Origin: Polyangiaceae bacterium | Lineage (GTDB): Bacteria; Myxococcota_A; Polyangia; Polyangiales; Polyangiaceae | Reading direction: 5' to 3' | Length of the DNA: 62,853 nucleotides | NCBI GenBank assembly: GCA_009780955.1 | Contig: WQZB01000016.1 | Coordinates: forward strand, 1-62,853 | In this document: positions 24,508 through 29,605 of the stretch, piece by piece | How the letters are laid out: each line of letters starts with the position of its first letter | Position numbering within the stretch: position 1 is the first letter of the stretch | The notes under the pieces: generated by a model | Told to the model about the DNA's origin: nothing | Databases searched by the model: none | The model's input: only the letters and a program-made list of their open reading frames with translations | Translations under genes and position numbers: made by a program

Positions 24508-24650
24508 CAAGTGAGCGCCGCCATATTTTGCCCTTCTGAGATGACTCCCCGACTTAAAACCAAATTAGAGACTCGGTCGATTGGAAAAGAAGATGGAGTG
24601 CCTCGAAAACTCGTAGATCAATTGTTTGATTGAAAGGAGGAATAGCAGTC

Positions 24651-25079
24651 ATGCAAAGTGAAATCAGCTGGCCCACCGTGGCCATGGTTGCAGTGATCGC
24701 GGCGATGATCGTCGCGATGGTCAAGCTGGATGTGTCGGCGACAACGATTGCTGCGTTTTCTGCGGCTGGTGTGGCGATTGCCGGTGCGATGCGTGGAATG
24801 TACCAGACGCGACCGCATAAGGGATCGCCATCTTCGAAGCCGAAGGCGCAGATCCATCCACCTCCGCTGCCGATCCTCGTGCTTCTTGGCGTGTTCGGCT
24901 TCGGCTGTTCGAGCACGATTACGCCTTACATTAGCGCATACGAGGCGTATCTCGTGCAGCAATTGAAGTGCGTCGATGAAGCGACGACTCTCGCCGAAGC
25001 GCACGAGTGTCGCGCGAAGGTGCGTGACGATTGGGCCGTCGACGCGGGCGCAGCTGGCGCAGATGGAGGTGGGCCATGA
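24651..25079 (+). CDS. Small membrane protein, holin-like
   Basis: 142 residues; the start at 24651 is supported by AAAGGAGG upstream. Hydrophobic helices at about 9-25 (TVAMVAVIAAMIVAMVK), 28-46 (TTIAAFSAAGVAIAGAM) and 74-85 (PILVLLGVFGFG), with a basic/Pro linker between the second and third. The third ends in Cys 86 followed by SS, resembling a weak lipobox; an internal start at M47 would make a small lipoprotein. Downstream come a second small protein (ATGA overlap at 25076) and an endolysin with no signal peptide. The order suggests a phage-type lysis cassette, so a holin role is inferred, not shown by homology. Confidence 0.5.
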   Translation: MQSEISWPTVAMVAVIAAMIVAMVKLDVSATTIAAFSAAGVAIAGAMRGMYQTRPHKGSPSSKPKAQIHPPPLPILVLLGVFGFGCSSTITPYISAYEAYLVQQLKCVDEATTLAEAHECRAKVRDDWAVDAGAAGADGGGP

Positions 25080-25297
25080 TTCCGGTCGCCATCATTGAGG
25101 GGATCGCACGTCTGCTCGGCGACATCCAGGCAGGCAAGATCGGCGGGTCAGGAGATGCCGCGCGCAAACTCGTGGGGCTCGGTCTCGATTTGGTCCCCGT
25201 CGAGGAGCTGCGGAATTACCTCACCGAAGAGGACATGCAACGTGCAGAGCGGATCGCGGACACGCTCGAACACGAGAAGTTTGGCAATGAACCGTGA
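25076..25297 (+). CDS. Small protein of phage-like cassette, function unknown
   Basis: 73 residues, starting at the ATGA overlap with the previous gene and preceded by GGAGGTGGGCC. Mostly amphipathic helices (MIPVAIIEGIARLLGD, DAARKLVGLGLDLVPVEELRNYL, EEDMQRAERIADTLEHEKF), without Cys or an obvious membrane span. No family recognised. Its coupling to the holin-like gene and position before the endolysin suggest it belongs to the same unit. Confidence 0.6.
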   Translation: MIPVAIIEGIARLLGDIQAGKIGGSGDAARKLVGLGLDLVPVEELRNYLTEEDMQRAERIADTLEHEKFGNEP

Positions 25298-25379
25298 AAT
25301 CTTTGATTCGAAGCTGCTTAGATGAAATAAAATATTCTTATAACACTGAAAACCGATTGAAAGGATAAAAGGTAAGAAC

Positions 25380-26240
25380 ATGGCAACTCTACAAAGTTTT
25401 ATCAACTATATGGTCAATATGTGCAATGATAACAGCTATGGCTACAAGTTCGGCGGCTGGGGACCCAAGGATTACGATTGCGCCAGTTCAATCATTACAA
25501 GCCTTAAAAATACTGGCTTTGCTGTTGGTGGGGCGACATACACAGGCAATATGTCTGCAAATTTGACGGCTCATGGTTGGCAAAGAATCAACAGTGGCAC
25601 AATTAATCTATCAAGCTCTGCCTCTTTGAAAGCGGGAGACATCCTGCTGAATGAGGCCGATCATACGGCGCTCTACGTTGGAAACAATCAGCTTGCGGAG
25701 TTCTCGAGCGATTACGATGGCAAGTCAGGCGACTCGAGTGGAAAGGAAGCGTGGGTACACGGGTATTACAACTTTCCTTGGAACTGCATACTGAGATATA
25801 ATACCACAGTTGATCAGACGGTAATCAATTTCTACTATTCCGTCAGGGCCGGTGGCACCGTTTACCCGGAGGTACACAACCTGGCGGATTTTGCTGGAGT
25901 GCAGGGTAAATCCATCACGGACGTGGCCATTCGGGTGGATAAAGGCACGGTCAAATACCGCGTTCATGTCATGGGATCTGGGTGGCTTCCCTACGTTACC
26001 GGATGCAATTGGAAGGATGGCAACAACGGATATGCCGGCGACGCGAAGGTCATCGACGCCATCGAGGTGAATTACACTCCTCCAAGCGGTGTCAAACAGA
26101 GAGCGCAGTATCGGGTATCTCCTGTCAACGGCAATTACTACCCGTGGCAGTATAACGCTGAGAAAACCAATGGCCAAGACGGCTACGCCGGGGCGATTGG
26201 TCATCCCATGGACCGGTTCCAACTGCAAGGGTGCACTTGA
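25380..26240 (+). CDS. NlpC/P60-like phage endolysin (Amidase_5 type) with Firmicutes-type wall-binding region
   Basis: 286 residues, no signal peptide. Residues 1-140 match bacteriophage peptidoglycan hydrolases of the NlpC/P60 superfamily: catalytic Cys in KDYDCASS (C34) and His in EADHTALYVG (H95), with LKAGDILL between them. Residues about 150-285 contain aromatic-rich repeats (YRVHVMGSGWLPYVTG and YRVSPVNGNYYPWQYN) that I know from cell-wall hydrolases of gut Firmicutes and their phages. Codon use is visibly more AT-rich than the neighbours, and AAAGGATAAAAGGT precedes the ATG. A perfect terminator follows. Predicted to cut cell-wall peptides, probably acquired horizontally. Confidence 0.85.
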   Translation: MATLQSFINYMVNMCNDNSYGYKFGGWGPKDYDCASSIITSLKNTGFAVGGATYTGNMSANLTAHGWQRINSGTINLSSSASLKAGDILLNEADHTALYVGNNQLAEFSSDYDGKSGDSSGKEAWVHGYYNFPWNCILRYNTTVDQTVINFYYSVRAGGTVYPEVHNLADFAGVQGKSITDVAIRVDKGTVKYRVHVMGSGWLPYVTGCNWKDGNNGYAGDAKVIDAIEVNYTPPSGVKQRAQYRVSPVNGNYYPWQYNAEKTNGQDGYAGAIGHPMDRFQLQGCT

Positions 26241-26260
26241 ATAGAAGGAACGCTGAACGT

Positions 26261-26297
26261 AGCCCCGGAACTATTTGTTCCGGGGCTATTTCTTAAT
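26261..26297 (+). terminator. Rho-independent terminator of the endolysin gene
   Basis: AGCCCCGGAAC (26261-26271), loop TATTT, GTTCCGGGGCT (26277-26287): a perfect 11-bp stem, followed by ATTTCTTAAT. It lies 20 bp after the endolysin stop and isolates the cassette from the next gene. Confidence 0.9.
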
Positions 26298-26328: not shown

Positions 26329-28767
26329 ATGACAAAACAAGCACGTGCGCCGGAATCCACCATCCAAGAGAGCTCGGGAGGCCGCCTGGCGGCAACCGAT
26401 GGCCGCGTCCTGCCACTGAAAGAAACACGCCTGACGGTCGATGCCAAGGGCGGGATCGCACGGACGACATTGCAGCAGACGTTCGCCAATCCCCATGCCG
26501 AGCCCTTGGCCGTGACCTATCTCTTGCCGCTTCCGGCGGATGGCGCGGTGAGCGGTTTCGCCTTCCGCATCGGCGAGCGTCGGATCTGCGGAGAAATCGA
26601 TTGCAAGCAAGCCGCCCGCGAGCGCTACGAGCAGGCATTGAGCGAAGGCCGGAGCGTGGCGCTGCTGGAGCAGGATCGCTCGAGCCTCTTCACGCAGGAG
26701 ATTGGCAACATTCCGCCTCACACGGAAGTCGTGGCGGAGATTGCCATCGATCAGCGACTTGCTTGGCTCTCCGAAGGAGCCTGGGAGCTGCGATTTCCCA
26801 CAACCGTCGCTCCGCGCTACCAAGGCGCGCCTGGGCGCGTTGCCGACGCCAAAGAGCTCAACGTCCCCATCAGCGGAACGCGGCTCGCAGCGCGAATGCA
26901 CGTGGACGTGATCGTGCGCGACGCGCTGGCTGGAGGGGGTCGCGCCGAGTCGTCGTCGCACGCGATGCGGTTTCGCGCGGAGGCGGGCGCGATGCGTGGC
27001 AGTCTCGATGCAGGAAATGGAGCACCGCTGGATCGCGATCTCGTCGTGCGCTGGTCCGTGGCCCAACCGGAGGTTGGGATCTCGCTCGTCACTTCGTGGC
27101 CCAAGGCGAGCGAAAAAAACTCGCACTTCGCGTTCGGGTTGCTGACGATCGTCCCACCTCGTCCCCAGAGCCAGACGCACATCGTCTCGCGCGATCTCAT
27201 CGTGCTGATCGACACCTCCGGTTCCATGCGCGGTGAGCCGCTGGAGCAGGCCAAGCGCATCGTCGGTGTACTCATCGACTCGCTCGACGCTCGCGATCAT
27301 CTCGAACTGATTGCGTTTTCGAGCTCCGCGCATCGCTTCAACGCCGAGCCCGCGTTGGCCACACAAGAACGGAAGCACGAGGCGCAAGCCTGGCTTCAGG
27401 AGCTTCGGGCCAGTGGTGGCACCGAGATGACCGATGCGCTCCTCGATGCGCTCACGCCGCTATGCTCGGAAGCTCAGCGTCAGGTAATCCTCGTCACCGA
27501 TGGCTTCATCGGCTTCGAGAGCGAAGTCGTCGCTTCCATCCTAACCAAGCTCCCGCAGCGTTCGCGCTTGCACACCGTGGGCGTTGGCTCCGCGGTAAAC
27601 CGGTCGCTCACCGCGCCCGCAGCACGTGCAGGGCGCGGCCTGGAGGTTGTGGTCGGTCTTGGCGAAGATTCGGAACGCGCCGCGCGACGGCTGTTGGCGC
27701 GCACCGAGAGGCCACTCGTCACTGACATGGTCGCCGAGGGAACCGCGCTGATCGAGTACGCTCCGCGGCGGCTCCCAGATCTTTTCTCCGGAGCTCCGGT
27801 GCTGGTTGGCATCAAGCTTCGACCCGAGGGAGGCACGCTCGAAGTGAAGGGGTGGTGCGTCGATGGAATCTTTTCGCATCGCATCGACGTGCCGCCCATC
27901 GAACGTGGCACCGCCGACGGCGCGGTTGTGGCGCTCTTCGCACGCGAGCAGATCGAAGATCTGGAGATGAGTCTGGCTGGCGGGGTGTTGAGCGAGGAGA
28001 TCAATCCGCAGATCGAGCGGCTCGGCGTGGAGTTTCAAATCAGCACCAGGCTCACGTCTTGGATCGCCATCAGCACGGAAAAAGATGTCGATACCCAGTC
28101 ATCCGTACGCCGGGAGATCATGCCTCACGAGGCTCCGTTTGGTACGAGCGTGGAGTCCTTCGGGCTGCGCCAAGAAGAAGTTCCAGCGTACCGGGCGGTC
28201 ATTCCTTACAAAGTCATCCACTCGGTCGATGGCATCGAGCATTACGACAACAAGCTACCGAAACGGTGGCTCTTCACCTTATACGGCGCCATCGCTTTTT
28301 CTGCTGTCTACTTGTTTTCGTATCATTTATTCAGCTTCTTCAATCACCCGTTCGGCGCCGACACAGCGGACCAGAACGTGGCGGTGGCCAAGCACGATAG
28401 TGGTGGTGGCGACGGCCCGGTGACGGTCGAGTCGCTGATCGCGGCCTCGAAAGACCCGGCCACGGTCGATCAAGGCAAGCAAATCTTCCAGCAAAACTGC
28501 GTTGCTTGCCATGCCGCAAATGGTGGCGGTGGTTTTGGTCCGAATCTCACCGACGACTACTGGCTGCATGGTGGTGCGCCCGACAAAATCTACAACAGCA
28601 TCTTTCACGGTGTGGTTCACGGTGCGGTCAAAAAGGGCATGCAAGCGTGGGGTCCAGTGCTTGGTCCAGACCAGATCAAAGCCGTGACCGCGTATGTCTA
28701 TACGTTGCACGGAACCAATGTTCCGGGGGGCAAGGCCCCACAAGGAGAGCGCGATCCCGAGCAGTGA
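26329..28767 (+). CDS. VIT-VWA protein fused to a CcoP/FixP-like membrane cytochrome c
   Basis: 812 residues from the ATG at 26329 (GAGGGATTCC upstream). Residues about 15-150 are a VIT domain (LPLKETRLTVDAKGGIARTTL, ERYEQALSEGRSVALLEQ); about 285-450 a VWA domain with intact MIDAS DTSGS (295-299). From about 635 the sequence changes to the start of cbb3 oxidase subunit CcoP: DGIEHYDNKLPKRW, a transmembrane helix 647-668, and a monoheme cytochrome c domain with CVACH (724-728), GPNLTDDYWLHGG and a probable axial Met 771. CcoP feeds electrons to CcoNO in the respiratory chain; VIT-VWA proteins are metal-dependent adhesion or scaffold proteins. No ccoN or ccoO is nearby. One uninterrupted frame; genuine fusion is favoured over an assembly join but unproven. 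Confidence 0.85.
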   Translation: MTKQARAPESTIQESSGGRLAATDGRVLPLKETRLTVDAKGGIARTTLQQTFANPHAEPLAVTYLLPLPADGAVSGFAFRIGERRICGEIDCKQAARERYEQALSEGRSVALLEQDRSSLFTQEIGNIPPHTEVVAEIAIDQRLAWLSEGAWELRFPTTVAPRYQGAPGRVADAKELNVPISGTRLAARMHVDVIVRDALAGGGRAESSSHAMRFRAEAGAMRGSLDAGNGAPLDRDLVVRWSVAQPEVGISLVTSWPKASEKNSHFAFGLLTIVPPRPQSQTHIVSRDLIVLIDTSGSMRGEPLEQAKRIVGVLIDSLDARDHLELIAFSSSAHRFNAEPALATQERKHEAQAWLQELRASGGTEMTDALLDALTPLCSEAQRQVILVTDGFIGFESEVVASILTKLPQRSRLHTVGVGSAVNRSLTAPAARAGRGLEVVVGLGEDSERAARRLLARTERPLVTDMVAEGTALIEYAPRRLPDLFSGAPVLVGIKLRPEGGTLEVKGWCVDGIFSHRIDVPPIERGTADGAVVALFAREQIEDLEMSLAGGVLSEEINPQIERLGVEFQISTRLTSWIAISTEKDVDTQSSVRREIMPHEAPFGTSVESFGLRQEEVPAYRAVIPYKVIHSVDGIEHYDNKLPKRWLFTLYGAIAFSAVYLFSYHLFSFFNHPFGADTADQNVAVAKHDSGGGDGPVTVESLIAASKDPATVDQGKQIFQQNCVACHAANGGGGFGPNLTDDYWLHGGAPDKIYNSIFHGVVHGAVKKGMQAWGPVLGPDQIKAVTAYVYTLHGTNVPGGKAPQGERDPEQ

Positions 28768-28790: not shown

Positions 28791-29360
28791 ATGGCGGACT
28801 TAGATTACTACCTGTCAGACATCGCTGCCGGTGACGCCCGGGCCTTCGGGGACTGGGTCGCTCGTGCCGAGCTCGAGCTCCGCGATTCGCTCCGGTCGTT
28901 TGCGACCGCGGTCGATGTCGAGGCGGTGCTTCAGGAGGCGCTCTTGCGGGTGTGGCAAGTGGCGCCGCGGGTTACGCCGGACGGCAAACCCAACGCGCTC
29001 CTCCGGCTCGCAGTTCGGATCGCACGGAACGAGGCGCTGAGTGAGGCCCGGAGACTGCGCACCGTTCATCTCGAGCCGGAAGCTCTGGAACAGGCGCTGT
29101 TGAAGGCCATAAACGTTCAACCCACTTCGGATCCGCTCTTGCGAAAGCGCATCGAAGAGTGTCTCGAAAAGCTTCCGCCGCAGCCTTCGGCGGCGCTTGC
29201 GCAGCGGCTGAAGGATGGAGGTGCGGAGCCCGACGCGGTCTTGGCAACGCGTGTTGGCATGCAGCCCAACACGTTCTTACAGAACGTAACGAGGGCAAGA
29301 AAGTTGATGATCGACTGCCTGAAAAAATCCGGAGTAGATTTGGAGGTGGAACGATCATGA
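28791..29360 (+). CDS. Sigma-70 family (ECF-like) RNA polymerase sigma factor
   Basis: 189 residues from the ATG at 28791. A region 2-like segment (FGDWVARAELELRDSLRSF...DVEAVLQEALLRVWQ) is followed after a linker by a region 4-like helix-turn-helix (CLEKLPPQPSAALAQRL...VLATRVGMQPNTFLQNVTRARKLM). This two-domain layout is that of an ECF sigma factor that directs RNA polymerase to a small regulon, usually held by an anti-sigma partner. The next gene overlaps it (ATGA at 29357) and is the candidate partner. It follows the VIT-VWA-cytochrome gene by 23 bp, so all three may be one operon. Confidence 0.75.
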   Translation: MADLDYYLSDIAAGDARAFGDWVARAELELRDSLRSFATAVDVEAVLQEALLRVWQVAPRVTPDGKPNALLRLAVRIARNEALSEARRLRTVHLEPEALEQALLKAINVQPTSDPLLRKRIEECLEKLPPQPSAALAQRLKDGGAEPDAVLATRVGMQPNTFLQNVTRARKLMIDCLKKSGVDLEVERS

Positions 29361-29605
29361 CCGACGAGAGCGAGCACGACGAGCGCGAGGCACTGATCGA
29401 GGCCGCGGCCGGTGCGTGGCGCGCTCGCGCACCCGACGGATCGGTGCAAACGCATCCGGCGTGGCATGATCTCGACGCCGACGGCCGGTGCGACGCGTTC
29501 GAAGTGGCGCGGCAGATGCGAAGGCTCGAGGCGGCTGCGGATCCGGCGGGGTTGTCGACAACCGCAAAAGCCGTGTTGGCGAGAATCCAAAAACGCGCCC
29601 GATAG
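29357..29605 (+). CDS. Small acidic protein, candidate partner of the sigma factor
   Basis: 82 residues, ATGA overlap with the sigma factor gene. Composition is acidic at the N-terminus (MTDESEHDEREALIEAA) and basic at the C-terminus (AKAVLARIQKRAR), with helical propensity and one Cys. No zinc-finger HxxxCxxC motif and no membrane helix, so it is not a classic ZAS anti-sigma factor. The translational coupling suggests it acts with the sigma factor. No family recognised. Confidence 0.65.
   Translation: MTDESEHDEREALIEAAAGAWRARAPDGSVQTHPAWHDLDADGRCDAFEVARQMRRLEAAADPAGLSTTAKAVLARIQKRAR

Follow-up and report, generated by a model that had tools for sequence, protein, structure and literature searches.

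A VIT-VWA protein with a CcoP-type cytochrome tail, encoded in a conserved sigma-factor operon of a Polyangiaceae bacterium

A single gene of a Polyangiaceae bacterium joins a VIT-VWA protein to a copy of the CcoP subunit of cbb3 oxidases, and sequence comparison indicates that this copy has taken the place of the normal tail of the VIT-VWA protein inside a conserved operon. The reading preferred here, at a probability of about 0.45, is that the product, rather than being a cbb3 subunit, is a membrane-tethered signalling protein that receives redox or heme input through a periplasmic domain. The main rival, a conceivable one, is that the fusion is recent and near-neutral, the captured CcoP being merely a replacement transmembrane anchor.

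The window, a stretch of 62,853 nucleotides of contig WQZB01000016.1, contains the fusion gene as one open frame of 812 codons on the forward strand (26329-28767), on which the terminator, the sigma factor gene and the small gene described below also lie. It encodes, in order, a VIT domain (residues 30-138, 26416-26742; PF08487, E 1.1e-28), a VWA domain (residues 289-429, 27193-27615; PF00092, E 3.5e-13) with the MIDAS motif DTSGS at 295-299, a FixP_N segment with its transmembrane helix (residues 631-671, 28219-28341; PF14715, E 2e-10, 40.6 bits against a cut-off of 24.9) and a monoheme cytochrome c domain (residues 712-790, 28462-28698; PF13442 Cytochrome_CBB3, E 2.2e-15, 57.2 bits against a cut-off of 27). 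Each of the four exceeds its own Pfam cut-off and lies far beyond chance expectation. The heme motifs CVACH (724-728) and GPNLTD (737-742) are present, as is Met771. The initial annotation had described a fusion in a single frame, an intact MIDAS (D295, S297, S299) and a monoheme domain, and in these respects it is borne out. A structure prediction from the single sequence reached a mean pLDDT of only 34 and was discarded.

The frame can be extended upstream to an in-frame TTG at 26275, but the ATG at 26329 has GAGGGATTCC just 5' of it, a plausible ribosome-binding site, and lies downstream of a strong intrinsic terminator hairpin (26259-26289; a 13-bp stem followed by a T-rich tail, -27 kcal/mol, z -6.6). 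This terminator stands between the VIT-VWA operon and an endolysin-like gene upstream. The stretch directly preceding it (24630-26240), partly of low GC content (40-50%), looks like a phage lysis cassette, in which the endolysin-like gene, of the NlpC/P60 type (PF25309, E 5e-14), is accompanied by a small ORF and a gene for a short membrane protein.

Downstream, as had been claimed, a sigma factor and a small gene come next. The ECF-like sigma factor gene (28791-29360; TIGR02989 E 5e-16 and Sigma70_r2 E 1.8e-4, both under the curated cut-offs) starts 23 nt past the stop codon of the fusion, and is followed by a gene for an 82-residue protein (29357-29605) with no Pfam or NCBIfam match. The same arrangement, with the sigma gene and then the small gene directly downstream and usually only a few bases apart, is found in all 32 complete orthologous loci. 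The sigma factor is 52-60% identical to those of the orthologous operons, and a homolog of the small protein (46-66% identical) is encoded in every one of the 32. The VIT-VWA core itself is 44-61% identical to orthologs from the same order, class and phylum, and ends near the GLR motif as theirs do; of the 96 columns that 95% or more of the orthologs conserve, it deviates at just one. Given the three genes shared with the orthologs and the terminator upstream, the fusion gene heads a conserved operon, in which the sigma factor and small protein genes are more than chance neighbours. No description of a VIT-VWA/sigma/small-protein operon was found in the partial literature library consulted. 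The operon recurs across the phylum, with VIT-VWA tails of several kinds (loci L011-L021 and L077-L103).

What sets the window's copy apart is the end of its first gene. The orthologs continue after the common GLR into a Pro-rich tail, which in 14 of 32 cases closes with a helix of high hydrophobicity (mean hydropathy >2.4) and in others appears, by eye, to be beta-rich at its end; a CxxCH motif occurs in none of the 32 complete tails. The fusion shares the ortholog sequence as far as residue 614, and the usual tail, whether Pro-rich with an anchor or beta-rich, is absent. At the junction (28162-28209), GLR (612-614) is followed by about 13 residues that resemble no sequence compared, and homology to CcoP sets in at about residue 628. 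From there to the end of the protein (residues 628-812, 28210-28767), the gene is 81% identical in nucleotide sequence to the ccoP found elsewhere in the genome, the similarity running from near the ccoP start to its stop and no further.

A separate contig, C26, carries that native ccoP within a complete cbb3 operon, which consists of ccoNO, ccoP, a FixG-type ccoG, an E1-E2 ATPase gene and a DsbD-like gene. The native gene encodes a monoheme CcoP in a 207-residue frame, and the CcoP proteins of the related genomes aligned here are likewise monoheme. In this native operon ccoN and ccoO are themselves fused in one frame of 804 residues (L030, 9960-13149). A tree built from 31 CcoP proteins places the fused and native copies as sisters (support 98/65), joins the pair to the CcoP of the nearest relative (100/99) and gives the fused copy the longer branch (0.28 vs 0.10). 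The simplest reading of these relationships is that the cytochrome part derives from a ccoP that was duplicated in this lineage and then captured, although it may instead have come from a close relative. It had been suggested that the fusion arose by a deletion joining two neighbouring genes. This finds no support, as the duplicated ccoP sits inside a conserved operon, at the usual position of the tail, while the native gene is on a different contig.

The joint is very probably real. An artefact of assembly or contamination might be suspected from the draft state of the genome, which is in 112 contigs, and from the uniqueness of the fusion, but operon genes flank the ccoP copy on both sides, which makes a chimera very unlikely: two precise in-frame joins would be needed, the order on both sides is that of 32 orthologs, and the only other ccoP found matches the copy at 81% identity rather than 100%. 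By estimate, completeness is 98.7% and contamination 0.3%. The initial annotation had counted an absence of relatives with the same domain order against the fusion; none of the relatives examined has the fusion, but they also show both flanks of the ccoP copy to be normally placed, which speaks against an artefact.

Among 184 genomes of the order, in which the cases with long frames were read, CcoP is joined to VIT-VWA only here. No cytochrome tail was seen among the VIT-VWA orthologs read from a sample of the phylum, a search of the phylum for FixP_N gave no frame as large as 470 residues among the matches listed, and none of 28 CcoP loci contained a VIT-VWA gene. Six CcoP matches in long frames (L052, L056, L060, L061, L065 and L072) proved to be ordinary cbb3 operons or upstream frames free of stops, and a scan of genome contigs turned up only unrelated cytochromes. 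The genome with the most similar CcoP, of the same genus and listed as 100% complete, had no match to VIT-VWA at the threshold applied. The claim that no such fusion is known thus stands, none having been found elsewhere, and no earlier description of a VIT-VWA-CcoP fusion was found in the partial literature library. This restriction to one genome is in keeping with a recent passenger.

Inspection by eye shows no clear secretion signal at the start of the fusion or of the orthologs read. The N-terminus of CcoP lies in the cytoplasm, and many of the orthologs carry C-terminal anchors. From these three points the simplest topology would place the VIT-VWA part in the cytoplasm, followed by one helix and a periplasmic heme c domain; they also speak against the earlier view of the VWA domain as extracellular and adhesive or ligand-binding. 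In an engineered fusion of cytochrome c1 to CcoP the junction faces the n side (PMC7876108), from which a cytoplasmic VIT-VWA part would likewise be expected. With the FixP_N helix at the position of the anchor, the layout of the anchored orthologs would be kept and a heme domain added outside. A helix located where many orthologs have their anchor is equally what a mere replacement anchor would provide.

The captured CcoP has not changed evenly. The signature GIEEYDN-LP-WW that precedes the helix in CcoP is not kept, the fusion having GIEHYDNKLPKRW instead; the replacements E638H and W646R affect sites that do not vary among 29 relatives and are retained by CcoP of the Pseudomonas and Rhodobacter types as well, and a tryptophan within the FixP_N helix is replaced by leucine. 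The start of the cytochrome part, previously described as a complete CcoP-type start, is therefore altered in its docking signature. Replacements found only in the fused copy outnumber those found only in the native one by 8 to 1 in the FixP_N segment (p 0.04), as against 5 to 5 in the heme domain. The FixP_N score falls from 56.3 bits in the native protein to 40.6 in the fused one, while that of the heme domain (PF13442) shows no drop (57.2 fused vs 52.8 native). This pattern points away from a role as an oxidase subunit. That the fusion nevertheless enters the cbb3 oxidase as an alternative CcoP, tethering VIT-VWA to the respiratory complex, is improbable: CcoNO is encoded in the genome, the heme motifs are intact and engineered N-terminal fusions of CcoP are functional (PMC7876108), but the two invariant residues and the helix tryptophan have been lost from the FixP_N segment, and the oxidase operon retains its own ccoP. 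The fusion is not encoded beside ccoN and ccoO, which lie with the rest of the cco operon on C26. It also misses the equivalog cut-off of TIGR00782 (98.9 against 179.95), a shortfall that may reflect its single heme.

The same comparison bears on the passenger explanation, since the segment that would serve as the anchor has changed more than the heme domain. Furthermore, the heme motifs are intact, the frame is free of stops, and all indels relative to native ccoP are of whole codons, at a nucleotide divergence of 16.5%; of neutral simulations, 16% also remain stop-free. For the fused copy as a whole, branch omega comes to 0.40 (p 0.08 against a value of 1); the heme domain alone gives 0.64 (p 0.73), not distinguishable from 1 in a codon-branch test that is too weak to settle the question for this domain. 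Taken together, these results are suggestive, though not proof, of selection maintaining the cytochrome part. The heme-domain omega is also compatible with a passenger, as are the longer branch of the fused copy in the tree and a four-residue insertion just ahead of the Met loop (HGVV/HGAV, 760-767), which is absent from the 30 other aligned CcoP proteins; the heme domain could have been kept similar by recency or by gene conversion. At the DNA level, this insertion is of 12 bases (28606-28629), appears to be a tandem duplication (HGVV-HGAV) and is confined to the fused copy.

Under the preferred reading of a signalling protein with a redox or heme input, a duplicated ccoP would have displaced the C-terminal tail of the operon's VIT-VWA protein, with the FixP_N helix standing in for the usual anchor. 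The VIT-VWA part would work together with the sigma factor and the small protein encoded next to it, and the periplasmic heme domain would supply the operon with redox or heme input, while the separate, complete cbb3 operon would fill the oxidase role. The monoheme domain would be loaded with heme, and cytochrome c assembly proteins are encoded in the same genome. The more specific proposal of a transmembrane redox or heme c sensor, in which the cytochrome domain switches VIT-VWA and this in turn controls the co-encoded sigma factor, is a speculative one and rather unlikely as it stands. Were it true, respiratory or redox state would be linked to transcription, and the variable tails of the operon family would represent interchangeable input modules. 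More generally, the swapped tail hints at where the input signal of the operon may be sought.

Searches of the literature for VIT-VWA proteins with sigma factors or with CcoP returned nothing relevant. Known systems resemble the fusion in part. The marine proteobacterial sortase target family, TIGR03788, likewise has VIT followed by VWA and matches residues 33-613 (E 5.5e-114), but the fusion misses the equivalog cut-off (381.9 bits against 551.65), has no evident secretion signal and sits in a sigma-factor operon. Vwa1 of Dictyostelium is a cytoplasmic VIT-VWA (VIT/vWFA) protein, as the VIT-VWA part here is predicted to be, and acts in the regulation of development (PMC10539598); it differs in being eukaryotic and in having no cytochrome part described. 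With CcoP/FixP (PF14715 and PF13442; TIGR00782) the fusion has in common the FixP_N helix and the cytochrome c domain, but it carries 614 residues of VIT-VWA in front of them, lies outside any cco operon and has an altered docking signature. Like the CcoP of its relatives it has one heme site, in contrast to the two in Pseudomonas and Rhodobacter CcoP. A further parallel is provided by the fusions of cytochrome c1 to CcoP, with or without cytochrome cy, in Rhodobacter capsulatus (PMC7876108), in which a protein is also joined to the CcoP N-terminus. Those fusions are man-made, their partner is a respiratory subunit and their product is a working oxidase, whereas the gene described here appears to be a natural case of a regulatory-type protein that has acquired a respiratory cytochrome subunit as its tail.
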